Positions 1-24,427 of a DNA stretch of 64,000 nt are shown piece after piece. Positions within the stretch are counted from its first letter, which is position 1, and every line of letters begins with the position of its first letter. Both the position numbers and the translations under genes were made by a program. Under the pieces are notes generated by a model, which worked only from the letters and a program-made list of their open reading frames with translations, ran no database searches and was not told the origin of the DNA. Origin of the DNA: Megalonaias nervosa (lineage: Eukaryota; Mollusca; Bivalvia; Unionida; Unionidae); NCBI GenBank assembly GCA_016617855.1, contig JAECUM010006721.1, positions 1-64,000 of the forward strand. The letters run 5' to 3'.

Positions 1-1255
1 CCAGAATATCCTATATGATACAAGTGATCTATCTGCAAGTGAACATAGAGTGTTCTTGGTCGGAAATTCCTCTGACTCTTGCCACCCCATTTTTGATATT
101 TGGACATTTCTGTTGGGGTGTAGGGTCAGAGTCCATTCCCTATTGAAAAGTTGGAATTCGCCGACACCATTTGGCGTCGGCATAGGGTAGCCGCTTACTA
201 CCTGGCCTAGGAAACTTTAACGACCTTTCATCGAAATATACCTGCATGAAATCGATAGGAATATGATTAATTTTCTCAGAAATAGCGAGTGTAACATTCT
301 TTGTATCTTTAATCCGCTGAGAGACGAGATGCAACTATGGCGTTGATGAAATTTGACCTGGAACTCGCCATTTGCATTCCGAGTCACATGACTACAAAAA
401 TCTCGCAACCTACATGTCAATGACATCAGAGATCCAATAGCCACATGATATCAACAATAAAACATTTCGAATGTAGCTGTACATAGAATTCGAAAATATT
501 AATTAAAAGTAGCGTAATACTTGTACATAAATATAAAATACACTTAATTTTCAACATATTTATTCTGAGAACAACGACTAGAACCCTGCCGGTCTCGCAG
601 CAAAGTGGAGAAAACCAGATTCATCAAGTACTAAGCACGTGTCAGCGATGTATTTTGCTATCACGTGACTACCGCGTTGACCTTTGCTCTCCACTTATTC
701 AATCTGTTTCGTTGCTGCAATATTTACAGATTTCTGGTCATTGTTTCCAGAATAAATATTTTTAGAAGTTTATGTACTTTTATTTTTCTATAAATTTTAC
801 GTGGCTTTCATTTATATGTTCGATTTGTTTTCCTACAGCAACATTAGAAATGGTTAATTGTTGATATCACGTGACTATTTAAACTCTGAAGTCATTGACA
901 TGTGGGTCGAGAGATCTGTGTAGTCATGTGACTTGGAATGCAAATAGCGAGTTCCAGGTCAAATTTCATCAACGCTATAGCTTTGGCAAATCTGTCAGCG
1001 GATAAAAGATATAACGAATGCTATACTCTCAATATCTGAGAAAATAAATCATATTCCTATCGATTTCATGCGGGTATTTCTCGATGAAAGGTCGTTAAAG
1101 TTTCCTAGGCCGGTTAGTAAGCGGCTACCCAATGGCGACACCTAATCGTGTTGGCGAATTCCAACTTTTCGATAGGAATGGACTCTGACCCCACACCCCA
1201 ATATAAATGTCCAAATATCAAAAATGGGGTGGCAAGGGTCAGAGGAAACTCGGAC
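1..1255. repeat. 1.2-kb palindromic (foldback) repeat, two ~600-bp arms
   Basis: The left arm (about 57-655) is repeated in reverse complement by the right arm (about 656-1,255). Both arms carry the same landmarks, such as CACCCCATTTTTGATATTTG near the outer end and CACGTGA motifs near the centre. The outer ends read TTGGTCGG on the left and, inverted, TAGTCCGAG on the right. A third copy of one arm lies at 6,376-7,008. Arms diverge by small changes, so the palindrome is old. It has no convincing ORF. It could be a long-TIR MITE or a head-to-head fusion of two copies; the family is not recognised. Positions 1-56 precede the arm and show nothing identifiable. Confidence 0.8.
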
Positions 1256-1262
1256 TAAAATA

Positions 1263-2017
1263 AGATGTGGTCCTGCTCACGGATATCTTCGAAACGTTCA
1301 GGCATACATGCTTGTATCATAACCAACTTGATCCACTCTGGTATTTCTCAGCACCATGCCTCTCTGATATGCTCTCCTCATGGCGAGTCAAGTCCAACTT
1401 GAACACTTTACTGATCCGAACATGTTCATGTTCACCGAACACGTGAGTCGCGGAGGAAAATCCGTCATCAGCCGAGAAAACATGCTATTGCCAATAACAA
1501 ATACATGAAACTCTATGATCCCACCAAGTCATCCACATACATCCTCTACCTCTATGCCAACAAGCTTTATGAATGGGCGATAGCACAACCCCTTCCCGTG
1601 GGAGATTTTCACTGGATCACCGGAGAACAGTTCGTAGAGGAAAGACAAGCGGGATACGATGATGTTCATGGCTATTTCATCGAAGTCGATCTCATTTATC
1701 CCTCTCACCTCTATGATGCTCATAATGATTATCCCTTCTGCATTGAACCACTCCTCGTCACCAAATTCGATGCTGTATCCACAACAACTCGAGCAAAAAC
1801 GCCAATTCAGACTCGGAGACACTAAGGTTTAAAACTAGTACCCATTCTAACCCGCAAAACACGCTTCAAGATACATTATCGACTGCTCGAAAAAACTCTC
1901 CAACATTGACTCGTTCTTGACAAAGTTCATCATGCTTTCAAGTTTAAACAATCTTCATGGATGAAAACCTACGTCGACTTCCACACAAAACAAAGAGCCG
2001 AAGCCACTACGGAGCCC

Positions 2018-2052
<35 letters not shown>

Positions 2053-2796
2053 CCAACTCATGAACAACAGCGTCTTCAGAAAAACCATGGAATACATTAG
2101 AAGCAGAAAGAAAATCGAAATCGTCAATAAACTGGTCTCCAGCGATGTTTTTGCCAGCATGAAAATCTTTGACGAAGAACTCGTCGAGATCGAATCCAGA
2201 AAAACATATCTCAAGCTGGACAAACCCATCTACGCTGGCTCAGCCGTTCTCTACCTCCCCAAGATGCTCATGCTCGAGTTTCATGATGACTTCATCAAAC
2301 GTCAATACTGCGACAAGCCACACTCATGACCGAAACTGACTGATTCATCTATGAAATTGACGATGTCTTCGTGGATCTATACCGGCACCGAGACCTCTTT
2401 GATTTTATTTATTATCCTGAAACAAGCCCATTTCACTGCAAAGATAATAAAAAGTTACTTTGTAAGTTCAAAGATGAAACTTGTGGGATACCCACACAGA
2501 ATTCATTGGACTTCGGTCCAAAATGTATTGCTTCACACTCGATGATGATACCATTAGGAAAAAAAGCCAAAGGTGTCCAAAACCCCGACATTGGTCACAT
2601 CGCGACTATCTATCACTACAGCCAGTCACTACAAGGACATCTACGCATCTACTCCATGAGAACTTTCCGATCACAACGACATAGCATGTCTACAATGCTA
2701 ATCAACAAAAAAGGACTTTGTCCTTTTGACGATAAGCGTTACTCCACTGATGGTATTCACACACTCGCACACGGGCATTATCGCAGGCAAAAGTAA
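1263..2796 (+). pseudogene. polB: Polinton protein-primed DNA polymerase B, C-terminal half
   Basis: This is the polymerase half of a Polinton-type family B DNA polymerase, which would replicate the element by protein priming. Reading starts directly after the repeat arm with DVVLLTDIFETFR, continues with FTDPNMFMF and RGGKSV, then the motif A region YLYANKLYEWAIAQPLP (1,550 on), the motif B region KIFQLMNNSVFRKTMEY (2,048 on), the motif C region ETD followed by a stop (2,330), and the C-terminal DLYRHRDLFDF and FKDETCGIPTQ. It is dead: the motif A aspartate is Tyr, motif C is changed and followed by TGA at 2,340, an A-run fills 2,021-2,048, and there are frameshifts near 1,350, 1,495, 1,820 and 2,520. 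It ends about 50 bp before the element terminus. The N-terminal half is at 7,009-8,735 on the other strand. Confidence 0.9.
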
Positions 2797-2845
2797 CCCA
2801 CCCTCCCACCCACCTCTAGGACAGGAAAACACTCTTGATCACGCA

Positions 2846-2950
2846 GTGAGCCAGAAACCCCTATCAATATTATGTAGACGGGGGGACTCTTGAACACTAT
2901 TTATCACTCAGTGATAAAAATGAGCCAGAACTCCATTTCTATATCCTACT
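2846..2950. repeat. Polinton terminal repeat, left end (now inverted)
   Basis: About 105 bp match 16,826-16,930 at roughly 80% by eye, in the same orientation. Shared blocks include ACTCTTGAACACT, TATCAC-CAGTGATAAAA and GAGCCAGAAC, and both copies end in CTACT (AGTAG read inward). An internal partial tandem repeat of the CTCTTGA and GAGCCAGAA blocks extends back to about 2,830. Polintons usually begin with AG, which fits. Confidence 0.85.
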
Positions 2951-2956
2951 ATTGAA
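2951..2956. repeat. Target-site duplication of the Polinton (inverted copy)
   Basis: ATTGAA directly follows the terminal CT at 2,950. It is the exact reverse complement of TTCAAT after the other terminus at 16,930, as expected if this end was turned round after insertion. Confidence 0.8.
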
Positions 2957-3175
2957 GGGGACCCTGGGTAGCCAAGTGGTCTAAAGTATTCGTCTTTAAA
3001 GACCACTGACATCTCACCTCTGTCCGCGTGGGTTCAAATCTCGGCTCGGTCAACATAGGTATAGGATAAAGCTTGTCAGTAGCTTCTCGTTGCCATGTAT
3101 GTCCTATCATATACTGAAAAATGACATTAAACCCATAAAACAAACAAATTATTAATTCACACACTCAATACAAAT
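2957..3175 (+). mobile_element. tRNA-derived SINE (family A)
   Basis: The head carries a degenerate A box (TAGCCAAGTGGTCTAAAG, about 2,971) and a B box (GGTTCAAATCT, about 3,032), followed by a tRNA-unrelated body ending in ATTAAACCCATAAAACAAAC. The SINE head starts within a few bases of the Polinton target site. Another copy is at 4,288-4,452 on the opposite strand. This is not a functional tRNA gene. Confidence 0.75.
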
Positions 3176-3232
3176 AAAAGTTCTGAATATGGCAAGTATT
3201 AGAAGATATTTGTACGCCTGTCCGTCACCCCA

Positions 3233-3235
<3 letters not shown>

Positions 3236-3298
<63 letters not shown>
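3236..3298. repeat. (TA)n microsatellite
   Basis: Uninterrupted TA dinucleotides of about 60 bp. They create spurious Ile-Tyr ORFs. Confidence 0.95.
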
Positions 3299-3299
<1 letters not shown>

Positions 3300-3329
3300 G
3301 CTAGACAGTGTCGCCTACCCAAGTCGGAC

Positions 3330-3870
3330 CATCGATTAATGTCACATACTGTGTTCAAAGGTCAGCATTGGGATTTTTCTTGTGAGGTCCATAACGTTTA
3401 GATGAAACTTTGCACACATTGTGTACATTGATTACATGATGTATTGCGTACCGTACCATGGCTGATGGTTTTAATATCAAGTTCCAAGACGATCTTAAAA
3501 GATCAATATAGAGATTTTCGTGTCCTCTCTATAACCTTTGAACAAGCTGAGGGATATTGAGGAAACCTGCCGTAAATGTGCATCTTAAAATTAGACAGCG
3601 TGTGGTTTACCACACAAAGGCCCTACTCCCCAATGTCAAGGTCACAGGCAGGATTCAAAGATTATCAAATAGGTTTTAGTGTCCGCTGTTTAAGGTGTGA
3701 ATCGATTGCGGGATTTTAATGAAACATTGCATAAATGTAGACCAGACGTCGTGCATCAGACTCAGACCAACGTGTTCAAGGTTAAGATCAGAGATGGAGC
3801 TCCAAGGTCAGCTTAGGCTAGTCATGTCTGCTATATACTTCTCCTAATATTCGTCTGCCAGAACAATTGA
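3330..3870. repeat. Degenerate ~190-bp tandem repeat, mollusc satellite type
   Basis: Three diverged units repeat the order: GTCAAGGTCA-like phrase, a TTTTNGTGTCC phrase, then GATGAAAC(T)TTGCA. The array at 57,290-57,870 shares the AAGGTCA and GAAACTTG phrases. No coding potential. Confidence 0.55.
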
Positions 3871-4287
3871 TTGCATGAAACATTCCCTTGACTGAACAAA
3901 CACTTCTTTCATTTAATTTGTGTTGGTAAGAGCTTTCGTGTCCAGTTGACAGGTTTCTAGTTTATGCAGGAAAGACATTTGCTAATTTGGCCAGATTAGA
4001 AAGTAACCTTATTATAAAAGAAAATGTTCATTTTTGTAAATGGATGTCTTTGATAGAAGATTATACATTTTTCTCTGCAACTGCTTAAGTTTTCTTTAAA
4101 TGTTAAGAATATATTTTGAGTTTTATTTCGTTACAGATGTATCTATTTTGTGTCCTTGCCTTGATATGTCCTTTTAATGACAGAATGTAGATTTAATACA
4201 AATAAAGTTGTTGTTGTTGTTGTTGTACCATTTTCAGCACAAGATAGGCTATACATGGCGGCCAGTATAAATGGTGCAGGAAGAACC
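3871..4287. other. Non-coding; possible retroelement 3' tail with (GTT)n
   Basis: There is no gene. The segment ends in AATACAAATAAAGTTGTTG and further GTT repeats (4,198-4,227), a polyadenylation-like signal plus trinucleotide tail as found at LINE/SINE 3' ends. Confidence 0.4.
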
Positions 4288-4452
4288 TGGGAAAATCCCG
4301 GAAAGAACCACCGACCTACGAGAAACTACTGATAAGCTTTCTCACTTACCCAGATTGGCCGAGCCCGAGACTCGAACCCACGCAGACAGAGGTGAGATGG
4401 CAGTGATCCGTAACGGTGAGCACTTTTAGACCACTCTGCCACTAGGGGCCCT
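4288..4452 (-). mobile_element. tRNA-derived SINE (family A), reverse orientation
   Basis: Read on the minus strand the head begins GGGCCCCTAGTGGCAGAG. The A box TGGCAGAGTGGTCTAAAAG is followed by the B box GGTTCGAGTCTC, and the body shares CATCTCACCTCTGTC with the copy at 2,957. The 3' part is shorter and diverged. Confidence 0.75.
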
Positions 4453-6375
4453 GCTGAAAAAGAAATATTGGAAGTAACTGTGAAATCACTTTGCTAATAC
4501 AACGAATGTTGAACTTGAGCGTGCATTTGTAACATTTTCTGGTTTAGTACCACATTTTAGAACAAGAATAATTAATATAAAATAAAACTATTTTGATATA
4601 TTTTTTTAATTAAATTAAATATTAGAAAGACCTGTATGATTTATAAATATTTTTTTCTAAAGAAACCAATTTCGGAACTTTTTTAAAGACATGTTCTGAT
4701 TATTTATAACATTATTACTGTACAATTTAACCTCTATTGGGATATATTCAGACCAACTGCACATATGGACCAATGAACCTTCTCTCAAATATATTGGCAC
4801 TAATGACCCTTCCGGCCAATAAAAATATATTTGAAATATTAATTGTTCTAACTATTTATCCCATTTTCCAACACATTCGGAACCCTTTTTCAATTATTCT
4901 CAGACTAATGAACCTTAAGACTAATAAGCCCCTGGTTGTCAAAACCTTCGGAGTAAACAATCTTTTAAACATTTCCTTGAAAGTTATGAATCTTCGGATC
5001 AGTGAGATAATGATCCATGTACATGTATTCGTGAATTTGCGAACCATCAGAAGAATGGAATTTTGGGCTAAACTGTTCGGAAAACAGAGCTCTTGTACAA
5101 CAATAGTTCAGATTTGTGAACCTTTGGACAAATGGACCTTCGAAACATCAAGCAGTTACGAGGTGCGATTAATTTAAGCAGTAATAACTCCTGTCCACGT
5201 TGAGTAATTTGAATCCTGTCATCCATGCCACGGAAAATTCTATTACTTTTTCTTGGTAGAAAAACAATATTTTTGAGATTTATATAATTGCTAAAAACTT
5301 GCTCTTCAATATGAATTTAAACAAAACATATAAATAATATTAAAAATGCGCATATACAGGATCAAAAAAGGATAGATCAAAGAGAAAAAAATTCCATCTT
5401 TAGGTGCAATATTATATAGAATATTTATTTAACACGAAACATAAAAATAATATATCCAGTCTAATTTAATTTTCACAGTATGCAGTTAAAATTGAAACAA
5501 AATATGTAATGTGCTACCTTGGGGATGAACGAATAGGAGCAAAACGACTTCTTCGCCCAACAGCATACGATTGAAATGAAATTGTGTGCGAAATCACACA
5601 GATTCTTCTAAAGGAAGTGAGGAGATGTTCCGGGAACCAGACTGTTATGTTAATTCATATCTAGATCATATTTTGTATTTTTTATGATTTTTTTTTTTTT
5701 AAAATGTGGTACATATGACTGAAAATGTGTCTGGTGTGACTAGACAACTCTTACCCCAGTCGAGTTCCAGCAGAGTTATCTCTCTTAAATTCAATGGAGT
5801 ACCTGATTCTGTCCTTGTCAAATTGACAATCTAACATTGTTCTCTATTACAGTGTGTGACATGCATGCTGTGGTAGGATAGAAAGTATATTTGTTTCACA
5901 AAACATTAGCATTGAGGTCTATGGAAAAACAATTGGTACCGTAATACCTATAAGGAAGAACAGCCTCGCAGTTTAACTATAGAAACACATACATGTGGGC
6001 GGCATTTATGAACTGTACTAGTTTGATGTAGGAAAACAAATTTATGCTGAAATTTCTGGTCAAATATTGACAGTCTTATAAGAATAAAATGTATGAAATC
6101 ATTAAAAAATAAGACAAGCAGACTTTAGATGGGGGCTTATGATAAGTATAGCTATGACAGACATAGACTTGTATTGCCTGACGGCTTTATGTCTGTCTAG
6201 TCAGTTCCAAGACTGGCATACATGCAACAAAATAAGTTATGTAAACATAATATAGTTGCTTTTGGCTAAATATTGACTATTTTACTTGCAAAACATGGTA
6301 AATCATGTATTAAAAACAACAAACAACTATCTTGTTTTTGTAAGACATGCCATAAACCGGGATAGAGAACATTCT
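4453..6375. other. Non-coding flank with degenerate repeats
   Basis: No gene. At 4,735-5,160 short diverged units of the type ACTAATGAACCTTCGGA repeat and create a spurious 146-codon ORF. At about 5,625-5,760 a block (GGGAACCAGACTGTTAT onward) is the reverse complement of 22,265-22,390, a shared dispersed repeat. The remainder is AT-rich with nothing recognised. By the inversion model this is host DNA that once lay on the other side of the Polinton end. Confidence 0.6.
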
Positions 6376-7008
6376 AGTCCGAGTTTCCTCTAACCCTTGC
6401 CACCCCATTTTTGATATTTGGACATTTCTGTTGGGGTGTAGGATCAGAGTCCATTCCCTATCGAAAAGTTGGAATTCGCCGACACCATTTGGCGTCGGCA
6501 TAGGGTAGCCGCTTACTAACCGGCCTAGGAAACTTTAACGACCTTTCATCGAGATATACCTGCATGAAATCGATAGGAATATGATTAATTGTCTCAGATA
6601 TTGCGAGTATAGCATTCGTTATATCTTTAATCCGCTGGCAGACTAGCCGAAGCTATAGCGTTGATGAAATTTGACCTGGAACTCGCTATTTGCATTCCAA
6701 GTCACATGACTACACAAATCTCGCGACCCACATGTCAATGACTTCAGAGTTCAAATAGTCACGTGATATCAACAAATTAACCATTTCTAATGTTGCTGTA
6801 GGAAAACAAATCGAACATATAAATGAAAGTCACGTAAAATTTATAGAAAAATAAAAGAACATAAACTTCTAAAAATATTTATTCTGGAAACAATGACCAG
6901 AAATCTGTAAATGTTACAGCAACTTGAAAAAAAACAAACAGATTCAACAAGCGGAGAGCACAGGTCAACGCGGTAGTCACGTGATACCAACAAAATACAT
7001 AGCTGACA
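6376..7008. repeat. Third copy of the palindrome arm, inside the polymerase gene
   Basis: The copy runs from TAGTCCGAGTTTCC (outer end, about 6,375) to ATAGCTGACAC (inner end, about 7,008). It is in the same orientation as the left arm of 1-1,255 and inverted relative to the right arm. Polymerase coding sequence resumes immediately at 7,009. Identity to the right arm looks higher than to the left arm. Confidence 0.85.
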
Positions 7009-8735
7009 CAATCAGATACAGGTCGGGATAATCTCCGAGAGTTTGGCAACCGAAAACGTTCCATATTTTACTCGTGTATTGGTATTCCTCATCGGCGATG
7101 TCGGAGAAATGAAAAGTGGGAATAGAAGGCATCTTGAGGGGTGCAACGAGGTTTCATCGAATCTCGACCACGTATCAGTGTATTCACAGGGATAAACTCC
7201 TTTTCGTTGGAGTAGATCTGCAAGAGTTCCAAATTCTTTTTCTAGGTGTGTGAACTTAGGACAGGTTTCGGTGAGTTCTTCCTGCGAAGACACCATGAAC
7301 TGGTACGAATCAATGAATCGAAAAGGTCCAATCGAGAACGACATGTATTTTTCAAAATTGTGGGAGATGCATCTGACGGGGCAGGAACCTGCCTCGGCGA
7401 GAAGTGTCTTAATGCGTGGATGACTGAGCGCTGTCACGATAAATTGTCCATCGTATCCTCGTAGATTATGAGCGATCACCGGTAGGAAGTATGGATCTTT
7501 GAAGCGTAGATTACATCTAGCATGAGCGACTCCTCGATCGTGTCCTGTGACATGACAATGATCTCTGACTTTATCATGCTTACAGTTCTTACAGATGTTG
7601 CTTTGCTGAGCTGATCGAAGTTGTCTCAATTGTGAGGGTGTGAGTGGAATCATCTCAGCTGGATTTTTTGGATGGCGTGGATGCGTTTGTACTCGCTGAC
7701 GAGTTGCTTAAATAACCACACGAAGCAATTTTCACGTTGATGTTGTCGATAGGGTGAAGACAAGTGATGATGGACGGAGAAGCAGGTTTTATAGCTGATA
7801 GCGCACGGGACATACTTATGTTCCAATTGAGTGAAATAATAAACTGAATCAGGAGAGGGTCATTGTACTTTTTCAAGGATCGCTTCCGAGTTAAAGACGA
7901 TATAAAACGTATGCGCGTATTTTCTATAGTGGTTTTCGAACTGTATTGTTTCCTCGCATGACATCTGAACAGTTTGCAGTTCTTGATAGTATCCAGACGT
8001 GATGTGGTTCTGTAGTCGCTGTGGTTGAGACAACCATTGCAAGCAGCGATAGCAGAATATCCATGATATTTATGTTGTATGTATCGTGATCGACGCAACT
8101 GGCTGAAGTCTTTGATGTACGCAAAATGGTGATGGTAACACAGTAAATTGATGCTGCGTTGTGAGGATGTTTTGGAGATCAACAACGGATAGACGATGAA
8201 CTGTTTATCGCCTATGTTTTTGTCATCGAGTCCAAAAACGTTGATAGAGAGTCCACCGTTGAGCGATTCCAGTTTAGGGACGCCTTTGATCGCTGCATAA
8301 ATGGTAATACCGGTGGTGTTGTGGGCATCAAAACAAGACCTGTACTTGGAGATGCGATCGGAATTGTCCTCTGCCGGATGTAGCTCGGAAAGGATAGCCG
8401 ACACGAGGCAGAAGTCATCGTTGTTTTGACATTGATGCATGCCTTCGTAGCGATGATTTGCTTGGGAAGCGGCACGTACTTACTTCCGCGCAATTGGGAA
8501 GTCTGAAACGAAACAGAATTGGCTCCGGTGAAGACCCATGCCGATCCTGCCTCTGGATAATCTTCGATGCGACGTTGGATAAATGACCAGATGTTGCTGA
8601 AATCATCACGACGATACACGATGAGGATTTAGCTGTTATCCACATATCGATGCTCTTTTGTTCCCGCACAAAATGAACGTTAAGAGCTTTTCCGAGCTAA
8701 TTAGCCGTGTGTGTGTGTGTGTGTGTGTGTGGTTC
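7009..8735 (-). pseudogene. polB: Polinton DNA polymerase B, N-terminal half
   Basis: On the minus strand, in order: SKYVPLPKQIIATKACINVK (about 8,480), a match to the family's cap before the WSVLAALHP-type block (here LVSAILSELHPAED), NVFGLDDKN, then an endonuclease VII-like zinc/HNH stretch VRDHCHVTGHDRGVAHARCNL (7,575-7,505), the exonuclease motif HNLRGYDGQFIV (about 7,470), and finally LGDYPDLYL at 7,036-7,010, where it stops against the repeat arm. In this family the next residues are the DVLLLADVFE block, which starts the other half at 1,263. Frameshifts occur near 8,420, 7,655 and 7,110; a CA/TG microsatellite (8,702-8,732) interrupts the 5' part. The gene is non-functional. Confidence 0.9.
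8702..8732. repeat. (TG)n microsatellite inside polymerase coding sequence
   Basis: About 15 TG dinucleotides on the plus strand, read as His-Thr repeats in the minus-strand frame. It is probably a post-insertion expansion. Confidence 0.9.
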
Positions 8736-9224
8736 TGCATCCACGGTAGGTTTTAGAATACGCTGAAGGAGTTCTATGTTGACTCCTCGCTGAAGTATGT
8801 GTTGATAATCGTAAATAAATCTTTTGTCAGCACCACCATACGCCTTTTCGACACGCCTGGCTGGTGGAAGATGCGTGATCTTATCGCGTTGTTGTTGAAG
8901 GGTTCGCGCATCAATTTTGTGGGCGGTTTTCTCAATGTCAGCTCGTCATGATCGGCTCATGATTTCACGCTGAAGTCAAAGGAGTTTGGAAGGCTTAGCG
9001 GTTTTTCCCGTGAGGGCCTTGTTCTTGTCTCGCAGTTGCTTCGTGTGCTGATGCTTGGTAAGGATCTCTCGTCCCGCCAGTGCTTGGTACTTACTGATGA
9101 GCTTACGACGGGGTACGTCGGTACCTTGTACGGATCGAGCCATGTCCCTGCATCGACGAGCAATGCCTTGTCGCAGGATAAAATCTTTTCCTGGATCTGC
9201 CTTGCGCGGAATTCTACGTTCCAC
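8736..9224 (-). pseudogene. N-terminal extension of the polymerase, or separate upstream gene
   Basis: A single minus-strand frame runs from about 9,224 (GTG; true start unresolved) to the microsatellite at 8,732 with only two stops (at about 8,982 and 8,952). It encodes a basic, helical sequence of about 160 residues including RQGIARRCRDMARS, RFIYDYQHILQRGVNIELL and LQRILKPTVD. It leads into the polymerase without an obvious new start, so it may be the polymerase N-terminus (a place where protein-primed polymerases vary) or a separate gene. No family recognised. Confidence 0.55.
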
Positions 9225-9362
9225 TGATACTAGGTAAGATATTAATCTATCCTTGTGATGATAGATGTGTATATAATATAGTCCCGTCTGCTATTTCTTT
9301 AACTGCTTGTTAATTTTATCATCTCTTGTTATGAAATAAATTTTAATCTATTATATAGCAAA

Positions 9363-9658
9363 ATGCCTCTGCGTGGCCGTAATAGGTGTGCGTAGTTACT
9401 CAAAGGCAGCACGGAAAAGTGCTACAAGTCGTGCAAGGAAGAGAATTGCGCGCAGAATAATGTCGTCATCAGGCGGGGAAGTCCTGGATTTAAGCCCTGC
9501 CTGGGTTGTCAGGAAGGAGTTCGAGGTCAGCTCCAGGTGTGTCAGTGCTGCGGTGGTCGGCATATCAGGGCGATTAAATATTACTACGAGAAACTGAGAA
9601 CCACCCAGCGACTCAAAACACCATCGGGCGGTATTTTACGAGTTTTTGGCGACGATTA
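9363..9658 (+). pseudogene. Small cysteine-rich protein, one in-frame stop
   Basis: An ATG at 9,363 opens a frame of 97 codons ending at TAA 9,656-9,658, broken by a single TAG at 9,393. After it come CYKSCKEENC, then CLGC and CQCCGGRH: eight cysteines arranged as a possible double zinc ribbon, followed by a basic tail. It lies on the plus strand between the polymerase and the minus-strand gene run. The ORF that overlaps it in another frame (9,373-9,597) lacks this Cys pattern and is rejected. No family recognised; a DNA- or RNA-binding role is a guess from the Cys pattern. Confidence 0.55.
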
Positions 9659-9770
9659 AGCATGACGCAGTCAACAAAGTCGTCTCCGTGAAGAGTTAAT
9701 TCCCTTGTTTAGTCGTTACGAAGCTAACGCTTAGGGAGAGGTACGTAGCATACGTATCAAGATCAGGATT

Positions 9771-9965
9771 GTGACCAGGTTTAGCACCACTGGCTACTCC
9801 ATCGTACATTTGTACGTCAACGGGATCAGGGCTACGATGTACCGTCATTGTTTTGTGTTTGAAGGACATCGTGGAGTCCTCCCCATCTTATACTCGGTCG
9901 TTCATCTCAACGGTGAAAAATCGGATAATCGGCTGGACAACGTGGAGATAAGACCCGACGAATAG
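9771..9965 (+). CDS. HNH endonuclease-like protein, short or truncated
   Basis: Sixty-four codons from a GTG at 9,771 to TAG at 9,963. The pattern GYSIVHLYVNG, then a spaced RHCFVFEGH, then VVHLNGEKSDNRLDNVEI, matches the HNH-3 type found in homing endonucleases (usual form VHHINGDKSNNRLENLE). The second His of the HH pair is Leu, so metal binding may be lost. The start is uncertain and an N-terminal domain may be missing. Other large dsDNA virus-like elements often carry such selfish endonucleases. Confidence 0.6.
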   Translation: MTRFSTTGYSIVHLYVNGIRATMYRHCFVFEGHRGVLPILYSVVHLNGEKSDNRLDNVEIRPDE

Positions 9966-10017
9966 CAAAAATATTAAATATTAAAAAGCTTTTATACAAT
10001 TAAAAAAGTGGTGTTAT

Positions 10018-10386
10018 CTACGCATCAGTGGACCTGTACAACAGCTTTAGGATTTCTTCTCGATGCATGCAGGAAATGCAGTGATTGAAAATGAGATCTT
10101 TATCGTAGACAATGTAGAGCGTGCCATGGTCGTAGAGCTCTTTTTGTTGAGCCGCCGTGAGCAACACGGGATCGTTTCCTATCCTTACCATTTTGGCGAG
10201 AGCGAGAACCACGCTGATGTATATGTTGAGATGGAAAGCGTTCACGATAGCATTTTCAAGATCCTTTTGATTTTCCAAGATGACATACGTGAGATATCGT
10301 GTGTGGTCTGAGCTGTTGACTGGATCAACAAATTTGACTGGTATGTCACTTCCTCCATGTTCATTCTTATGACTAAGATAATTTTA
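10018..10386 (-). pseudogene. Small unknown protein, paralogue B
   Basis: An open frame on the minus strand encodes DIPVKFVDPVN, then ENQKDLENAIVNAFH and a C-terminal LLTAAQQKELYDHG followed by LYIVYDKDLIFNHC. It aligns along its length with the next upstream gene (10,384-10,665): the LLT..Q..EL..G, Y(D/E)DLI..HC and N-terminal ..DL..AI blocks correspond. No in-frame ATG is found at the 5' end; the ATG at 10,363 is in another frame, so a frameshift near the start is likely. No family recognised. Confidence 0.55.
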
Positions 10387-10665
10387 AGATTTTTTGAGCG
10401 GATTTTCACTCACATAGCGCATGCAGTGCTGTCTGATCAGATCCTCGTCGTAATAGATCTTAAAGATGCCGTTTCGGGATAACTCCGCACGTTGCTCTCG
10501 CGTGAGTAAAACCTCTTTGGGCGCTGCTAGCTGCATTTTGGTCCGCGTCAGTTCGAGCGTCATATGAACGTGATTTAGAAGCACCGTCGCGATGGATTCG
10601 TGAAGAGTCTCAGGTTGACGCAAGATCACGTCGGTGACAAAGACTTCATCAGCATAGTCAGACAT
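10384..10665 (-). CDS. Small unknown protein, paralogue A (intact)
   Basis: Intact 93-codon ORF, ATG at 10,665. It has an N-terminal helical part (FVTDVILRQPETLHESIATV), then LLTREQRAELSRNG and IYYDEDLIRQHCMRYV. It is a tandem paralogue of the following gene at 10,018-10,386. TATATAG sits 5 bases before the ATG, a motif also seen before other genes of the element. It is one of the few unbroken reading frames in this decayed element. Function unknown; I recognise no named family. Confidence 0.65.
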   Translation of the reverse strand: MSDYADEVFVTDVILRQPETLHESIATVLLNHVHMTLELTRTKMQLAAPKEVLLTREQRAELSRNGIFKIYYDEDLIRQHCMRYVSENPLKKS

Positions 10666-10689
10666 TTTCTATATAGTGAATTATTTTTG

Positions 10690-10996
10690 GTCGTAGGCTT
10701 TTTCCAATCGGCTCAACCCGCACTGAACCATATCTACGATGAGATCGTCGACGGTTCTCATCTCGCTGATCAGCAACGACACGTTTAACTGAGCCCCACG
10801 CAGATACGAGCAAATCTTGTTTCTGATACGATATCATGGCCTGCTTGGTACTATATTGTTTGGCCTCCATTTGCAGCTCGAGGCGTTTCATCATCGCTTT
10901 GAAGACCATTCCTGCTCCGGATAAAATCAGTATCATCGGGTTAGCCATCGCCCCAGTGGAAATAACACCAGTAGCCGTCACAGCGAGCGGAATCAT
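10690..10996 (-). pseudogene. Small membrane-type protein with frameshift
   Basis: The ATG at 10,996 overlaps the stop of the preceding gene (ATGA overlap), which supports this start. The first 33 residues are hydrophobic and Gly/Ala-rich (VTATGVISTGAMANPMILIL), then comes a helical charged part (MMKRLELQMEAKQYS). A frameshift near 10,805 moves the likely end into a frame with SLLISEMRTVDDLIVDM and LSRLEKAYDQK, stopping near 10,690, just before paralogue A. A membrane or virion-associated role is possible but unproven. Confidence 0.5.
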
Positions 10997-11630
10997 CGAA
11001 ATGAATTCAGGATGCGCTTGTAACGCCGGTACACATGTTTTTTCATTTAGACTTTTCGATGATAATAACGATGGTACGATTCTAGCAAGCGACGTTGCTC
11101 CATCGACAAATTCTCGTCGATGTGGTTAAATTCGGGGATGTGCTGAATGCTCCTGAGTCGACTAAACTCTGAAATAGCGTCTTAAGCTCTAACATATTCT
11201 CATTTAGGAATTTCATATACTTTTCCACGCTGAATGTTCTATTGATGATCTCACGATGTAACTCTGGTTGGTCTGCTGACAAATTCATGAGAAGACTTAA
11301 TCTCGTGTTTAGTCCTATGATTTGATTGATTTTAATAAGATCCTCGAGCGTATCATGAGTCACAAGGTAGGTGTGTGCTGCTAAAGTATCCATGACATTA
11401 ACATCAAGCTTATGGTGATATATATAAAGATAACATAACGCCTGAGCTATCCTGTTCACGTTAAGGTGTATTTTTTCATACATCAATATTTCATTCTTTA
11501 GTTTTTATAGGATGTCTTCATTCGTGAGTGCCATCGTTATGTATTTAGCAAAGTTAAGTGTTTTGTCCACTATTTTAATCTTTGTCTCAGGTTCTTCCTC
11601 AGGTGGATCCATAAAATGATTCCTAGTCAT
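10992..11630 (-). pseudogene. Unknown helical protein of the element
   Basis: The frame opens at ATG 11,630 (MTRNHFMDPPEEEPETKIK), has one TAA near 11,509 and continues as YEKIHLNVNRIAQALCYLYI and EDLIKINQIIGLNTRL. A frameshift near 11,150 leads to FNHIDENLSMEQRRLLESY and a basic end, with a stop overlapping the next ATG at 10,996. About 210 codons, mainly helical, with no membrane segment. Gene packing with its neighbours is typical of compact viral genomes. Family not recognised. Confidence 0.5.
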
Positions 11631-11669
11631 CTTACTTCCTAATCTCAGTATGTGTTCAGGTTCAGACAG

Positions 11670-12058
11670 TTATAAACTCTCCAGGTGACGATACGCTAAC
11701 GCGACTAAGTTAAGTTGTATTTTTCCATACTGCTCATACACGAATATAAAAAACATAGCCTCCATGGCCTTGCTTGCAGCTTGATCCTCTGACTCCGAAA
11801 GCGTTGGTACCTCGACCGTGTCTCCTCCTACGGTGCGTGCGTCGAGCGCCATCACAGCCAGGATAGTATCCACGTCCTCGTACTCCAGACCAACGTACTG
11901 CAAAAATTTTTGTTTGCAGATGGCGTCTCAGAGTTTTCGATTGCCAGGAAAGCATTTGTGCGTTCGAGGAATTTATCCATGCACTCGTGATCTTTTCGGT
12001 GACCCTCGTCGTCTTCCTTTCGACCAAACTGTCGTCGTTTAATGTATCCGGTCGTCAT
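11670..12058 (-). pseudogene. Unknown acidic protein of the element
   Basis: ATG at 12,058, three bases from the end of the upstream gene. The N-terminal part (MTTGYIKRRQFGRKEDDEGH, then DKFLERTNAFLAIE) is charged. A frameshift near 11,905 leads to VGLEYEDVDTILAVMALDAR and VPTLSESEDQAASKAMEAMF. The product would be about 125 residues. No motif identified. Confidence 0.5.
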
Positions 12059-12060
12059 GA

Positions 12061-12438
12061 TCACGTCCACGAGACTCTGTGCAGTTCGTTAATGATGTCC
12101 TGGATGGGTCCATCGATGGACTTGTCCAGCTTTGTGGATTCTCGATCGTTACAAAATTTAAGCACGGCAAAATACTTGTCAATGGCCTGTATAAGATGTT
12201 TCTCACGCATGTGCCCTATAGACAAATAAGACCGTTCCACACCATGGTGATTCCATTGCTCGTGAGACTCTTCCAATGACAATTTACCTGCATTTCTCAC
12301 CTCGTTGATATCGGCGAACGCTCCCGTGGTCTGATTGAGCACGTGATAATCATTGTCTGCATAGGACGCATACTGCCAGTAACTATCATCGAACAGCAGC
12401 TGGTACAACTCCGTAGCGACTCGAACAATTTCCGACAT
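12061..12438 (-). CDS. Unknown 125-residue protein of the element (intact)
   Basis: Open frame from ATG 12,438 to TGA at 12,061. Sequence features: ELYQLLFDDSYWQYASYADN, a LSLEESHEQWNHHG segment and a helical C-terminus with RESTKLDKSIDGPIQDIINEL. ATATAGG lies about nine bases before the ATG; the following gene starts three bases after the stop. No family recognised. Its intact frame contrasts with the broken neighbours but may only reflect its small size. Confidence 0.55.
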   Translation of the reverse strand: MSEIVRVATELYQLLFDDSYWQYASYADNDYHVLNQTTGAFADINEVRNAGKLSLEESHEQWNHHGVERSYLSIGHMREKHLIQAIDKYFAVLKFCNDRESTKLDKSIDGPIQDIINELHRVSWT

Positions 12439-12446
12439 GATGCCTA

Positions 12447-13866
12447 TATGAGATCGTCGAGAGTAAAACTCTGAATACAACTCGGTCCGGGTTTAGTGAT
12501 CGATGATCCACTGATGATATTTCCCATGTAAATCGTGTCCACGGTCGCATCTTGCTTAATGGCATCCAGTCTCCGTGTCAGTACTCGTTGTGTACCAGTG
12601 CTCTTTCCACGCACCTGAAACTTCCATATCGATACCGGTGAAGGTAATTGCACCTGGAACCAAAAAATAGAAAATGACTCCCGCTGTCGTCATTCATTGT
12701 CGTAATCGGACGCTGCCAGATGATGAACGTATATAATTCAAGCACGGCACGAACCAGAAAATTTTGACGACGCCGAGACAGAAATTCCAGATCAATTTCC
12801 CGTCGCCGCTGACAGCGTTGGAATATGTCCATGGTTATTTTTGACACAGCGCGCATCCACGTAGAGTTTGTTGACGATCTCGATGCTGTTGTTGGGAGTC
12901 GATTGCATGAAAAGTTTATTGTAATCCATGTTGAGATCAACCGTCATGGATCCTCCTATGCGTGCCAGTGCATAATCCGTCACTTGCTCGTAATTGACCA
13001 CGATATCCTGAGACGGTCTTCCCATCGCGGAAAATCCTGTGACTCTAAATCCTCCCATGGCGAGATTTCCAGAGAGGGTTCCCCAGTCAGTCACAATTTT
13101 GTATACCCAAGCGATTTTAACTTTGCGTACGAGATCGTTTGGGTGTCGTCGGTGACCGGCCAGGCGGTAAGAAACCTATATAATTTTTGCCCTTCTATCG
13201 TTGTCGTTCTGTACAAACTTATTTGGGAATCATTGATATCCACCAGGCAGAAGTAACTAACGTTGTGAACTCTGAATCCTTCCACCGTTTGAATCACGAT
13301 TGGAGTATAATATCGACTAGCATCTCTGTCGATCCACAGGGAATGATCTGAAGTGTCAAAGTAATAGACCAATGCTTATTCTCGTGCTGAGTCGGGTAGA
13401 CACACCGACTAGCCTAAGATTCTGCGTAGTAGTTCCAGAAGCAGTAGATCGTTAGTGACCTAAGTAACCACGGAGAACGTTCCAGCCACGTGCACATTTC
13501 CAGAGAGAGAGATACCTCCGTGTCATCGTATTTTTCAGCCAGCGAAACCTCGAGATCGGCATCTCTCACAGGCTGAGAAAACCCAGGACCTTGAGGGAGA
13601 AGTCCTCATGCCACCCATGTTGATACTCCCCGTCATGGTTCCACCAGTCAACGACAATTTGGTCTGCGTGAGTCTACTCACGTGAGACCAGAACGCGGAT
13701 TTGACGTCCGGAGCTGGATACCTCACGTCTCCGAGATTGGCGAGACTATTTCCGCTCATGTTGAGATCACCCTACATGGAATCCCCAAAACGGTTGACTT
13801 TTTTATCTAGATTATCCTGTCTGCCCCTGACCCGACGAGGGGGCCAAAGGATGTGTAAGACGACAT
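12447..13866 (-). pseudogene. Fibre-like virion protein with four shaft repeats, frameshifted
   Basis: On the minus strand the start MSSYTSFG at 13,866 is followed, across several frameshifts and a stop, by repeats of the kind seen in phage and viral fibres (a G-x-M-x-G-x-L/I-x-M-G-G core, a short turn, then a D-A-V-like phrase). They are GDLNMSGNSLANLGDV (about 13,770), GGTMTGSINMGG (13,645-13,610), GTLSGNLAMGGFRVTGF (13,082 on) and GGSMTVDLNMDY (12,956 on) with NKLYVDA. The C-terminal part ends at about 12,447 (FTLDDLI). It would be a trimeric surface fibre. It shares a 13-bp intergenic gap with the divergent ATPase gene. The call rests on repeat pattern only. Confidence 0.6.
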
Positions 13867-13879
13867 GCTTATATAGAAC
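13867..13879. promoter_or_regulatory. Candidate bidirectional TATA-like element
   Basis: The 13 bases between the two divergent ATGs read GCTTATATAGAAC. They give TTATATAG just before the ATPase start and CTATATAAG just before the fibre start on the other strand. Related TATATAG or ATATAG motifs precede the ATGs at 10,665 and 12,438. Confidence 0.4.
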
Positions 13880-14377
13880 ATGAACATCATTAACTTCGAC
13901 ACGAAAATGCATTCATATCATTTTTTGATGTCGGATTGTCATTACATGATCGTAGGTCCTACCGGTCGTGGTAGAACGAATCTGCTCATGAACATGCTCC
14001 TCAATAACATGTTGAAATACAATCAAGTGATCCTAAACACGCTCAATCATCACCAAGACAAGTTCAACACGTTGCACGAGTTCGGAAACGTGGTCAGTGG
14101 AGAACTCTTCAAGCCGCTCCTGACGAAACACGACGAAGCCGAAACGACGTACAATGTCAAGCAAGATCAGTTGCTGGACACGCTGAAATCGACTCAACAA
14201 CAGCCACAACGATTGCTAGAAGAGTTAACTACACCACCCTCGGAAAGCGACGTCGCCGAGATGATGAGGCGAACCGAAGCCGAGCAAAAAGGAGAAGCCA
14301 GGAAGGCCGAACAAAAAAATGAAACAAAAAGAAACAGAAACATCAGCGTCACTCAGGCAAGAAAGATAGAAAGATAG
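13880..14377 (+). pseudogene. FtsK/A32-like packaging ATPase, N-terminal part
   Basis: The start MNIINFDTK and the phrase SDCHYMIVGPTG are typical of Polinton packaging ATPases, which pump DNA into capsids. The Walker A loop is GPTGRGRT (residues 26-33): the lysine that binds phosphate is Arg. The next part (NNMLKYNQVILNTLNHHQDK) still fits the family. After about residue 80 the sequence becomes Gln/Glu/Lys-rich (STQQQPQRLLEEL, EMMRRTEAEQKGEARKAEQK) and no Walker B is visible. The frame ends at a TAG at 14,375. The end is probably fused to another gene's remains by a deletion. Non-functional. Confidence 0.75.
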
Positions 14378-14978
14378 AAGCAAAAAGCCGAGACTTGCTA
14401 ACAAATGAGGAAGCAAGGATTAAGCTGAAAAAAGAGAAGTTTCAAAGAAAAAATGACCAAAAAACGTCAGGAGGCTAAGATCACTACCGCTGAAATGAGC
14501 TGGCGCCTAGTATCGGTTATCGAAATCTGTCTACTTTAAGCAAAGAGTGGCTGGAACACTTTGTGAGAGACAAACGTCCATAAATAAAAGAGCATGTGGC
14601 TTTAGGACCGTCTGCCGCGGGATATTACTATAAAGCGGTAGCTGCACACCACTTGCCAGGTCATATCAACTGAATACATGGACAATAGATTAAGCTAAAC
14701 AAGGACGAAAACGAACAAGGATACCTGAACCAGCTGTTTGAGGAGTCAAAAAACACAATGCTGCAGTGGGAGAGGAAATCAAAGTCAGGGAAGACGTCTA
14801 TCGCTCGGGGGATAAACCTATGTTTCACATGACAGATCCAGAGTCTGCTCGGATGAAAGAACAAGCGTCGTCTCTGGTGACTGAGAGAAAGAGTCTTCCT
14901 GTGTCAAAAGAAGAGCTAGTGAAACTCATTGCAGAGAGAAACGAGGAGATTAAAAATGGCCTTTTTGAGTCGTTATGA
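14378..14978 (+). pseudogene. Coding-like remnants of unknown gene(s)
   Basis: Several plus-strand frames look coding but are broken by stops: YRNLSTLSKEWLEHFV (about 14,520), LGPSAAGYYYKAVAAHHL (about 14,600) and, open to TGA at 14,976, EEIKVREDVYRSGDKPMFHM then SLPVSKEELVKLIAERNEEI. The last frame overlaps the start of the penton-like gene at 14,956. I do not recognise it; it may be what is left of a larger structural gene lost by deletion. Confidence 0.4.
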
Positions 14979-15541
14979 TCTTCCTTGGACGCTTGGAGTG
15001 TCAAAGGAAAAGGAGAGAGCTTCAAAAATAGGAAGAAAGAGTTGGCGAATACAACATCATCGGTAAATCTACCGATTGATCACCGACAACGGAAATAAGT
15101 CCACGTACATCAATATCGAACCCAATAATTCCACGCTGCGTACCAGAAGCACCCTCTTTGTAGGGTATCGCGTGGGATTTGACATTCCCCACTCGATCGA
15201 ATCCATCCTAGGATTTAGCACTATCGTGGACGGTAACGGTGTACGCGAGAGAGAGCTCATTAACATTACTGACGTAAAAAGCTTCCTCATCAACTGCTCG
15301 ATTGCTCAGGGATGCTGTCGTCGGTCGGTTCGGCCTTCAGCGTGATTTATTCCCCTGCGATTAACGTCCCACAGGATCGCTCATGCAAATTCACCCTAAT
15401 CTCTTCATTTACTAACCCGTCCTGAACACACACGCGATCTCGTAAATCACCATGTTGCTCACCGATCAGTCCGGAAATGCCGTTGATAATGACCAAGAAA
15501 GAATCACATATTATTTGCACGTACGTCGTAAGCTCTGATAA
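14956..15541 (+). pseudogene. Penton-like minor capsid protein
   Basis: ATG at 14,956 gives MAFLSRYDLPW. After a TAA at 15,064 the same frame continues LITDNGNKSTYINIEPNN, STLFVGYRVGFDIPHSIE and LGFSTIVDG. A frameshift near 15,315 leads to FSVIYSPAINVP, then MQIHPNLFIY and MLLTDQSGNAVD with a C-terminal YYLHVRRKL ending at 15,541. This matches the single jelly-roll minor capsid (penton) protein of Polintons/adintoviruses (TDNG...VGYRVDFDVP...LTDQ.G....I...LR). Two further stops are in the C-terminal third. About 195 codons in all. Confidence 0.75.
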
Positions 15542-15549
15542 AAAAAAAT

Positions 15550-15720
15550 GTTCGCCGATAAAATAAGCAGCCATGATACGCGTACAGCGACGAAATATCG
15601 TGGGTGGATTTTTATCCACGCTGTTTTCTTCGATGCGAACAGCCCTTCCAGGGATCGCCACGAAAGTAGCTCCGATTTCCCTCAAAGCGGTCACAGCGGA
15701 AGCAACCAGAGCGAAAAATT
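15550..15720 (+). pseudogene. Short basic protein, adenovirus pX/pVI-like by position
   Basis: One frame reads MIRVQRRNIVGGFLSTLFSS and continues with RTALPGIATKVAPISLKAVT to a stop at about 15,721. Small Arg/Gly-rich, amphipathic proteins of this type (core or membrane-active minor proteins) are commonly encoded near penton genes in Polintons and adenoviruses. The start region is broken by a TAA just upstream. The family assignment is weak and rests on composition and position. Confidence 0.4.
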
Positions 15721-15744
15721 AATGTAACACTATAACATAACAAC

Positions 15745-15876
15745 ATGAATTCGTGGTGTCTAAAGCGCAAAACCAAAAGGGAAAGTATCGATCCCGTCGA
15801 GGTGGTCACCAAGAATCATTGCCTCATGATCAAATCGAGGTGTGCCGTGTGTTTTTCTGTATAAAAATATATCATT
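15745..15876 (+). CDS. DUF5679-like zinc ribbon, first part of the lipase gene
   Basis: ATG at 15,745 gives MNSWCLKRKTKRESIDPVEV, then VTKNHCLMIKSRCAVC, stopping at TAA 15,874. The usual form of this ribbon has CxxC...CxxC with the KNGR-(x)-I(K/Q)G core; here the second Cys of the first pair is Arg, so zinc binding is doubtful. In related elements such ribbons sit at the start of a phospholipase A2 protein, and lipase sequence follows here after the stop. Confidence 0.6.
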
Positions 15877-16300
15877 GTAGGCATTGCGATCTCGACACGA
15901 GCTACTAAGACCTTCACGGGGAAAGAAATCTGTGGGGGGGAGATTGTAAATGCTGCGAACAACGTCACATTCTCGGTGGAGCCGTGGACGTACATGCGCT
16001 GATCGACAAACTTCCAAGAACTCGTGGAGGATGGACGCTGCCAGGATACAATACACCGGACCATGAAATCCCTTGCAACAACAACTAGATGAAAATGATC
16101 AGCCTCTGCCAGGTCAAGAACCCTACAATGGTGTCGATGCCATTGCAATGCAACACGATCTCTCGTACGCAGATCATCCCGACGACAAAGGGGGATGAGA
16201 TCGAGTCATGCTGAACTCAAACCGAAAAATATAAGAGAACGTGTAAATTGAGCTCTTAAGCCTGGTATCATTGGCACCAAACCTAAGCTGGGCATCGGGA
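15877..16300 (+). pseudogene. Parvovirus-type phospholipase A2 domain
   Basis: After frameshifts the frame at about 16,020 carries YTGP (calcium loop remnant of YxGPG), LDENDQPLPGQEPYNGVDAI and AMQHDLSYADHPDDKGG, holding the catalytic HD pair and the downstream Tyr. Upstream, WTLPGYN in another frame is the usual lead-in. A C-terminal LKPGIIGTKPKLGIGIPG follows before integrase sequence. Such domains help virions leave endosomes in parvoviruses and occur in adintoviruses. Stops at 16,048 (in the calcium loop), 16,197 and 16,231 make it inactive. Confidence 0.7.
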
Positions 16301-16311
16301 TTCCAGGTAAA

Positions 16312-16600
16312 ATGAAAAAGTCAGCGGTGGTAGATCTGTCGACTCTTGCAGTAGAACTGCACAAACCTGCACGCAAGCATTTACCACGACGTAGAGTCAT
16401 CGCGTTCGCTGCAGACGATGCATGGTCGGCAGATCTCGTCGACATGAGAGATTACAGTGCATACAACGATCATTTAAAATATTTCATGACGGTCATCGAT
16501 GTATTCAACAAATACGCATAGGTGGTTCCTCTCAAAAACATAAAAGGAAATTCTATCGTTGAAGCGTTGGATAGCATTGTAAGTAGCTATAATTTATGGG
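16312..16600 (+). pseudogene. Polinton rve-family integrase, internal fragment
   Basis: The frame reads LHKPARKHLPRRRVIAF, then DDAWSADLVDMRDYSAYN with the first catalytic Asp (ADLVDM), LKYFMTVIDVFNKYA with a TAG at 16,519, and VVPLKNIKGNSIVEALDSIV. This is the Polinton c-integrase core (DDE fold). The N-terminal zinc domain, the last catalytic Glu and the chromodomain are missing; the lipase gene runs straight into it, and similarity stops near 16,580. Deletions on both sides are the simplest explanation. Confidence 0.85.
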
Positions 16601-16825
16601 TAGGCACATTACTCAAATCCTTATTCGCATACGCTATCAGCTCCTTTGCACGCTGCAGTCACTCCTTAGACTCCTCCTTACGTAATTCCAATACTGGACT
16701 GCTAAACTCCTCACTTGATCCCAATCGATCTAATCTCCATGGATAACACGGAAGAGACATCTTCGTTATGTTACAAGCACACCTCTAACACAACGAGGTA
16801 CAGAACCCACCATGGACATAAAAAG
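16601..16825. other. Terminal region, possible minus-strand gene remnant
   Basis: On the minus strand 16,745-16,600 reads PWRLDRLGSSEEFSSP then VLELRKEESKE, a stop, LQRAKELIAYANKDLSN. This is coding-like but unrecognised. The rest to 16,825 shows nothing. Confidence 0.3.
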
Positions 16826-16930
16826 TGACCCAGAAACCTCTATCAGTAGTATATAGACAGGAGCACTCTTGAACACTCTTTATCACGCAGTGATAAAAGT
16901 GAGCCAGAACCCCTATTTTTATGTACTACT
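16826..16930. repeat. Polinton terminal repeat, right end
   Basis: Matches 2,846-2,950 over its whole length and ends in CTACT at 16,930. It contains the short palindrome TATCACGCAGTGATA. Confidence 0.85.
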
Positions 16931-16936
16931 TTCAAT
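16931..16936. repeat. Target-site duplication of the Polinton (right copy)
   Basis: TTCAAT directly follows the terminal CT. Its reverse complement ATTGAA follows the other terminus at 2,950. Confidence 0.8.
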
Positions 16937-19254
16937 TACTGGGCCATCGAAACGGAAAATTATTGTTAGTATGGTTATTGACAGACAAGTTTCTTTTAGA
17001 ATAACGTTATTGTTGACTTAACAAGCGCATTAAATAACGTATAGTTTCAAAATACAATTATGCCTCTAAAACTTTTAATCTTTTGATCATATATTATTAG
17101 ACAAACGAGATCTATTATAGTACCAAAATACCAACAGTAAAACTTTAAAGTATTTCCCGTCCACCTCCCCCCCCCACTGATCACAATATAAGCTGCTAGC
17201 AGCGGTTAGATATTTTAATCCTGAACATCGAATAAGGAACCAACTGCTAACTTCACAGTAAACTACTTTTTATGAAAGATCGGTATTATGCAACGTAGTG
17301 TGAATGCTCTCTTTACGTTTTCCATAATTGTTGTAAGATTTATTATACAAGACATAAACTATAGCAAATGAGACAATACAGCTATTCAAAGTCACAGAAA
17401 TTGTCAGAATTTATTAATTTATATGGCTTTGTCTTCAAAACATAATTTTATTTCCTCAATTCTAATCCTTCTTACGATATTTGGGTTTTAAAATGGCGAT
17501 AATTACATTTCATCGAAAATTTTTACCGACTTTTGTTCATTTTCTGCATGCGGTAAACAAAAGCGCCGAAAATCGGGTAAAATGTTATGAAGTGCATTGT
17601 TTAATTCTCCTAAATCACGTCACTTATGCCAAAGAAACACTAGTTTTATGAATATAAAGGTAGTTTCCTGATGTGAATATCTCGATCAAAATGGTCAAAA
17701 GAGGTTTGCGTTGTATTTAAAATCGATGCATCTATCAACAGAAACACGTTGGAGATGGTATTCATGCGATTTATAAATAAAACAAATAAGCAACTTAGAA
17801 AATGTGTTTAATTTGCGCCAGATTTATAAGGCGATTACTTTGAAACGCTGTTATATTTGGGTTCTTTTAGGAACGAATACACCTCTCTCACCACCGCTAC
17901 AACACAACAACGAATCAAGATAAGGATATTTACCACATACCCAGTATGTTAAAGATCGAAATACGTCACTACGCCTTTGAGAAGGAATCACTTCACTTTG
18001 AACAGTCAACTACAATACTCTAGCACATGCTAACATGAAATTCTATCACAAACAAGAAGTGAGAAGTGATTTTTAAAAATCAATTTGTTATGCAGATTCT
18101 GAATCTGAATTTGCAAGCCCAATAGACCATGATATTTCAAATTGCGACGAAACCGTCTCAAACAGAAACTAATGTAAAAGTCAATGTGACCGAAGCTTTA
18201 CATATTGGATAAAACGTTATACTTTTAGCAGCACACACACACACACACACACACAGTGTGGAAAATATTTCTAAATGCACGCATTTAAAACAAATCAGAG
18301 TAAATTTGTTTGTAAGTTAAAATAATTGAACGTTTTTACAGTCCTGCAGTCCAACCTAATTTAAAGAAATGTTTTCACCCAGTATCGAGTTATTTCCCGT
18401 TCTCCTCTGGTGTACTGGCAGTTCAGACGTCCGAGTAACTACTTCAGGCGCTTCCATTTCATCTTGCTGGATGATAGATTCCACGAAGAGCACCTACTGC
18501 TGATAACTCCGTATTTTGATTCCGCGAAGAGCACCTGCTACTGACACCTTTGTGTTCTTTTGCTGACCTTTCAATTAACGGATGAACTGCCTGAGATTAA
18601 GAAGTATTTGTTCAACAAACTTTTTCCACTTGTTGTGGAATCCCTCAATGTAATTTGTTGTTCATTGTTTCTTGAGAAACGTTCCACATAGGAGGAGGAA
18701 ACGTCATTTTGCGAGATCTAGTTTAGGAAATCTCGGTGTGAGGGGATATTTACCTGAAGCTGAACGATAATTTGTGCTGGAGCTGAAAGTTTGGTCTTAC
18801 AGGGGATACGTGGAGATAACCTATGACATCACCTTTCGGATATATTTCCTCACTTTTCTACGACGACTGTGGGGGCAATCCAGCATCAGTTGTTGAATTT
18901 TGCTCCAAATACGTTGACAGAACTGGAAATAGGACCCAAAGTTTGGGTATATATAAGTTCAGTTTGTACAGACCCAGTTAGGGATAAATCAAAATCGCAA
19001 ATGACTGTGTTGTGGTTCCTGTTATATCGCATACCTTAGCTTTAAGGCGTTGAAGAATTTGACTACAATGCCCTACTTGGAACTGTTCGTCCCCCTGCCA
19101 CCTGTTTTTGCCAGTTCTTTTTCTATCTGCACGTCTTGCAGATCCCGCAGCGTAGGCGGTATAAGGTATGCTCCGACTCTTTGTAGCCACGAGAGAACAT
19201 TCAGGAATTCAGGAAACCTGTCCAAGTTCACGTTTCCTCTGCAACTACAAAACT
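16937..19254. other. Intergenic, nothing coding recognised
   Basis: AT-rich single-copy-looking DNA. It contains an (AC)n microsatellite at 18,231-18,256 and a short direct repeat (GATTCC-CGAAGAGCACCT at about 18,475 and 18,520). A minus-strand stretch at 19,210-19,090 (VLSWLQRVGAYLIPPTL and on) is faintly coding-like but unidentified and short. Confidence 0.6.
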
Positions 19255-24072: not shown

Positions 24073-24075
24073 GTA

Positions 24076-24427
24076 CACTTTGTGTGTGTATGTGTTTGTG
24101 ATTCATATTTTTAACATTGCTTTTAAATTAAGAGTTTTTCAGTCATATTGCTACTATGTCTGCAGTGGAACAGTTTATAGTGATGTCTAGCACTAGGGCA
24201 TCATGTTGCAGACATGTGGCATCATGTCCCACCCAATCACATTATTCTGAAACCAGGCCAACAATTCCTAAAACTAACCTCTTAACACTGAGCACCTAGT
24301 GAGGCAGCTGTTAGTACCATTTTTATGTCTCTGGTATGACTCAGCTGGGGTTTGAACCTGTGATCTCCCACATCCAAGGTGGTTGCTCTAACCACTTAAG
24401 CCACTGGAGCGGTCACTTTGTGTGTGT
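24076..24427 (-). mobile_element. tRNA-derived SINE (family B), copy 1, with 14-bp duplications
   Basis: Read on the minus strand, the head at the right end has a tRNA-like A box (TGGCTTAAGTGGTTAGAGC) and a diverged B box (GGTTCAAACCCC); the body contains the GTGGGACATGATGCC and GCATCATG phrases and the tail is (CA)n. The SINE (24,090-24,413) is bracketed by CACTTTGTGTGTGT at 24,076-24,089 and 24,414-24,427. The left duplication starts four bases into the intron after exon 1. Confidence 0.85.

Follow-up and report, generated by a model that had tools for sequence, protein, structure and literature searches.

The locus analysed here raises the question of why the two terminal repeats of what appears to be one Polinton point in the same direction instead of facing each other. 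The window, by which we mean the whole stretch of 64,000 nucleotides from Megalonaias nervosa (bases 1–64000 of a 79,435-bp contig), carries these repeats on its plus strand at 2846–2950, in the flipped orientation, and at 16826–16930, in the original one; both were placed by alignment with each other and by comparison of terminal inverted repeat (TIR) loci, and both end in CTACT. The original prediction had claimed that they are direct repeats, and this was borne out by a local alignment score of 76 in direct versus 31 in inverted orientation and by a plus/plus blastn match of 84.9% over 106 bp. It had also claimed that the six bases next to them are exact reverse complements, and indeed ATTGAA (2951–2956, plus strand), which adjoins the flipped repeat, is the exact reverse complement of TTCAAT (16931–16936, plus strand), which adjoins the unflipped one. 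The 6-bp target duplication of a Polinton is thus present with its two copies as reverse complements, and the AGT/ACT-type terminal repeats become inverted only once an inversion is allowed for, the ends being in direct orientation because of that inversion.

The agreement of the two 6-mers has a chance of 1 in 4096 with the ends fixed, and when both ends were allowed to move by up to 12 nt, it was found in 3014 of 200000 random pairs, which by itself makes it good but not overwhelming evidence. The boundary is constrained, given that CTACT ends the repeat in seven of eight TIR loci (the best 8 of 38 matches), or in five of six when the window's own two loci are set aside; the exception, locus L005, ends in ACAGGA, and some further Polinton ends in the same genome show one or two changes in the CTACT letters.

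A further line of evidence is a long gene cut in two by the same rearrangement. We used as yardsticks two contigs, L001 and L002, retrieved by a looser DNA pattern of a polymerase motif (the strict pattern gave no matches), and mainly the 1286-aa protein of L002, an IMG/VR contig that also encodes an rve integrase (PF00665, E 6.4e-08). In tblastn against the window, both parts of the gene are homologous to this one protein (E 2e-69 and 5e-21). The first part lies on the minus strand at 7013–8694, where residues 170–447 match at 8694–7961 (as two weak matches, 170–266 and 270–447), residues 532–758 at 7656–7033, and residues 736–764 at 7099–7013. The second part lies on the plus strand at 1258–2796, where residues 765–1282 match at 1258–2781, namely 765–797 at 1258–1356 (765–766 are not clearly conserved, and the clear match starts with 767, at 1264), 803–840 at 1371–1484, 837–1121 at 1475–2317, and 1127–1282 at 2329–2781. 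The cut therefore falls between the neighbouring residues 764 and 765, with the two parts adjoining without overlap on opposite strands, and the second relative, L001, places it identically by tblastn. Both parts contain stops or frame changes, and a copy of a repeat that we call X sits at each cut end, with arm X2 ending at 1257 and arm X3 at 7009.

The original prediction had spoken of colinear polymerase halves, of which the halves stood and could even be sharpened to neighbouring residues, while no library bore out the name "polymerase". Like that prediction, we read the gene as a putative Polinton polymerase on the basis of motifs. For the relatives, no polymerase call came from Pfam (at E 0.01 and E 10) or PHROGs, which on L002 returned Endonuclease VII matches only, nor from a solved-structure search with L002. 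For the gene pieces of the window, Pfam gave no polymerase, and solved structures gave none for the 7015–7707 piece; a related-locus search with two window pieces returned no relatives, tblastn of one piece against phages had no matches, and a literature search for the motif string also found none. What Pfam, PHROGs, and solved structures support is only a predicted Endonuclease_7-like stretch, located in the first part of the gene (PF02945, E 9.7e-06). The cut, of course, holds whatever the name of the gene.

The segment between the X arms, 1258–6374, comprises 5117 bp. On its left it is bordered by a foldback copy of X at 57–1257, made of arm X1 (57 to about 638, plus strand) and arm X2 (639–1257, minus strand), which match at 84.2% over 524 bp. 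We considered a palindrome artefact at the contig end as the origin of this foldback and rejected it, given that its arms differ by 16%. On the right, self-comparison and alignment to X2 showed a single arm, X3 (6375–7009, plus strand), inside the long gene. X2 and X3 agree at 92.0% over 639 bp (639–1261 versus 7009–6371), with the arm limits set at 639–1257 and 6375–7009 after trimming of the flanks; the inverted arms originally proposed at 656–1255 and 6376–7008 come close to these, although that description did not mention the 1.2-kb foldback of which the left arm forms one half. Ectopic recombination calls for homologous copies that face opposite ways, and these are found at both borders. 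X may resemble a Mutator-like element, a likeness that would consist of its 9-bp duplication and long arms only.

This 9-bp duplication is the second record of the inversion. The nine bases outside X1, GAGTGTTCT (48–56, plus strand), agree at eight of nine positions with those outside X3, GAATGTTCT (6366–6374, read on the minus strand), which would be the partner carried off by the inversion, versus only three of nine with the present neighbour of the left X at 1258–1266. With 49 end placements, a match of eight in nine was reached by 133 of 20000 random pairs. The second pair that an exchange should leave is not visible (two of nine) because X3 has one arm only, and since X3 also shows no duplication of its own, the test of exchanged duplications was confined to one of the expected two. 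As for the arms themselves, chimeras with one exchange point explained them no better than shuffles did (1431 of 5000 did as well). At 9 of 10 sites in 6428–6502, among 103 sites in total, X3 agrees with X1 and not with X2, which only 6 of 20000 shuffles equalled in a test chosen after the sites were seen; this run fits exchanged arm ends and is suggestive.

Besides one Polinton end, the flipped segment contains 3418 bp of host flank (2957–6374), in which we noted two tRNA-like, SINE-like copies, one at 2957 to about 3140 that starts right at the Polinton 6-mer and an inverted one near 4318–4435. ARAGORN and Rfam reported nothing at either copy, "SINE" being our own reading, and a duplication belonging to the SINE-like copy was looked for across the empty site without success.

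Taken as a description of this contig, the inversion is made close to certain by two findings, namely the cut of the gene from one residue to the next and the X duplication split across the inversion. As to its course, a Polinton would have inserted into host DNA with a 6-bp target duplication, and a copy of X would have come to sit within the long polymerase-like gene of the decaying element, with another X, the 1.2-kb foldback with its 9-bp duplication, oppositely oriented and a few kilobases away from the element. The 5117 bp of 1258–6374 would then have been flipped by ectopic recombination between the inverted arms of these two copies, and with this segment would have gone one end of the Polinton with the 6-mer next to it, the remainder of the gene from residue 765 on, and 3.4 kb of flanking host DNA. 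We infer, with good though not full confidence, that homologous recombination between the X arms split the Polinton in this way. What an inversion through inverted arms predicts of the structure is in the main found in the window, together with two lines that the original prediction did not use, the gene cut at neighbouring residues and the split X duplication; "proved", as the original prediction worded it, is too strong, because no more than 56 bp separate the left arm from the contig end, the one-exchange arm test failed, and the polymerase name found no library support. Against an inversion reading also stand two other contigs of this genome, C17414 with same-strand TIRs and C14708 with same-strand genes, so that unusual arrangements occur elsewhere too.

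That the animal itself carries the inverted order is probable from the contig, and the contrary reading, in which the genome is uninverted and the flip between the inverted X arms was introduced by the assembler, we consider unlikely. It would draw on the position of the left arm at the very start of the contig, with only 56 bp outside the left X, and on the fragmentation of the assembly (54709 contigs for 2.19 Gb), but the arms that would have misled the assembler differ by 8% over 639 bp, and the window contains no N. For the contigs numbered on either side of this one, C5661, we compared with 1–18500 the opening 200 bp of each (C5660 and C5662) and the closing 2000 bp of C5660, which have only simple repeats and chance-length words in common with it; the numbering may not follow genome order. 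We give even less credence to a real inversion caused by aberrant (hybrid-end) transposition of X or by break repair, with X as a bystander; the single arm of X3 and the negative one-exchange test speak for it, whereas both borders falling at X ends, and the X duplication pairing across the inversion, speak against it. In a self-comparison of 1–18500 for repeats of at least 40 bp, moreover, X and the SINE-like copies were the only border sequences seen in duplicate. Chance proximity of two unrelated Polinton fragments draws on the abundance of such elements, with at least 38 TIR matches in the genome, but the 6-mers match exactly and the two parts of the gene meet without overlap, one residue next to the other, on which ground we rejected this hardly credible reading. 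Returning to recombination between the X arms, these might keep recombining, so that the 5.1-kb segment would be a reversible switch with both orders segregating in the population, which seems quite doubtful to us.

Repeat-driven inversion is a known kind of event, of which this locus is a clear but ordinary example. Excerpts of the description of Polintons give them 6-bp duplications and (AGT)2//(ACT)2 ends (PMC8097293), with which the TIRs of the window, beginning with AGTAG when read inward, and its 6-bp duplication agree. Relatives in the same genome likewise carry an integrase and the long gene; in contrast to intact elements, the present copy is decayed, its ends are direct, and its other genes are weakly recognised. 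The closest parallel is with the Galileo inversions of Drosophila buzzatii, where, according to excerpts of that study, long arms in opposite orientation lie at both borders and exchanged target duplications serve as the sign of the event (PMC2775673). Here, a 5-kb flip cuts a Polinton, the X duplication has 9 bp and not 7, one of two duplications could be tested, the chimeric arms are only suggestive, and the likeness of X to a Galileo/P element concerns its arrangement. In Atlantic cod, the parts of the report consulted link inversions to tandem transposable elements, propose ectopic recombination, and note a raised Maverick density at the borders of the chromosome 12 inversion (PMC12368964). 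Related elements thus lie at inversion borders in both cases, with the difference that the cod inversions are large population inversions with Mavericks enriched at their borders, whereas here the Polinton itself is cut. Among the titles listed in our literature search, none concerned an inversion within a Polinton, which is no claim of absence in print. The value of the locus lies in being a compact, self-checking case, in which the order of events follows from the nested element and is recorded in two separate target duplications, and in showing that rearranged Polintons will escape surveys requiring inverted ends; views of what Polintons or foldback repeats do are unchanged by it.

As controls, we took pieces of 13 other contigs of the same genome, each around one Polinton end. 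Both outer ends, facing outward, were found on three of the 13 (C14306, C8369, and C937), where 5, 5, and 4 of the 6 duplication bases agree, with the left end of C14306 set one base out to allow for a changed first base. Of a left end on C35131 only the inner part was present, and C36594 had two facing ends that terminate in ACAGGA; apart from C17414, described below, the remaining seven offered one usable end, or a second match that was internal or too short. Ten of the 13 contigs carried the long gene, always on a single strand per contig, and in six of these 10 the match to L002 (E 1e-3) runs across the residue where the gene of the window is cut (C14306, C14708, C2514, C35131, C36594, and C937). 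Gene and integrase occur together on five contigs, on opposite strands and reading outward in four of them (C14306, C26631, C35131, and C937). The gene at 7013–8694 on the minus strand and a weak integrase match at 16423–16569 on the plus strand fit this common layout.

Three of these contigs merit description on their own. In C14708 (6736–25241; loci L022 and L023), the polymerase-like gene and the integrase are 13.6 kb apart and both on the plus strand, and one end was found; they may belong to two elements or to another rearranged copy. In C17414 (1487–10102; loci L012 and L013), two TIR copies share one strand at a distance of 8.5 kb, and the second of them abuts sequence that by eye resembles 8555–8595 of the window, inside the long gene; this is possibly another rearranged Polinton. 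C14306 holds at 2260–8280 (locus L014) a compact Polinton of about 6 kb with inverted ends and remnants of the integrase and the polymerase-like gene.

The integrase match of the window was obtained by tblastn with residues 77–125 of the integrase of L002 (E 0.031) and is a possible remnant; Pfam gave no match for 16318–16518 in the same region. Also on the plus strand are a possible packaging ATPase remnant at 13877–14377 (FtsK_SpoIIIE, E 0.0044, below the curated cut-off) and a possible phospholipase A2-like remnant at 16085–16192 (PF08398, E 0.0014, below the cut-off). For capsid and protease genes, the reading frames submitted to Pfam had no matches at E 0.01 and only chance-level ones at E 1. 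Elsewhere in the window, PARP12-like CCCH zinc fingers occur in pieces of a host gene at 23117–24190 (PF25261, E 1.2e-13) and 25920–26351 (E 0.054, below the cut-off), and a minisatellite at 38079–38995 has 31.8 copies of a 29-bp unit with 91% matches.
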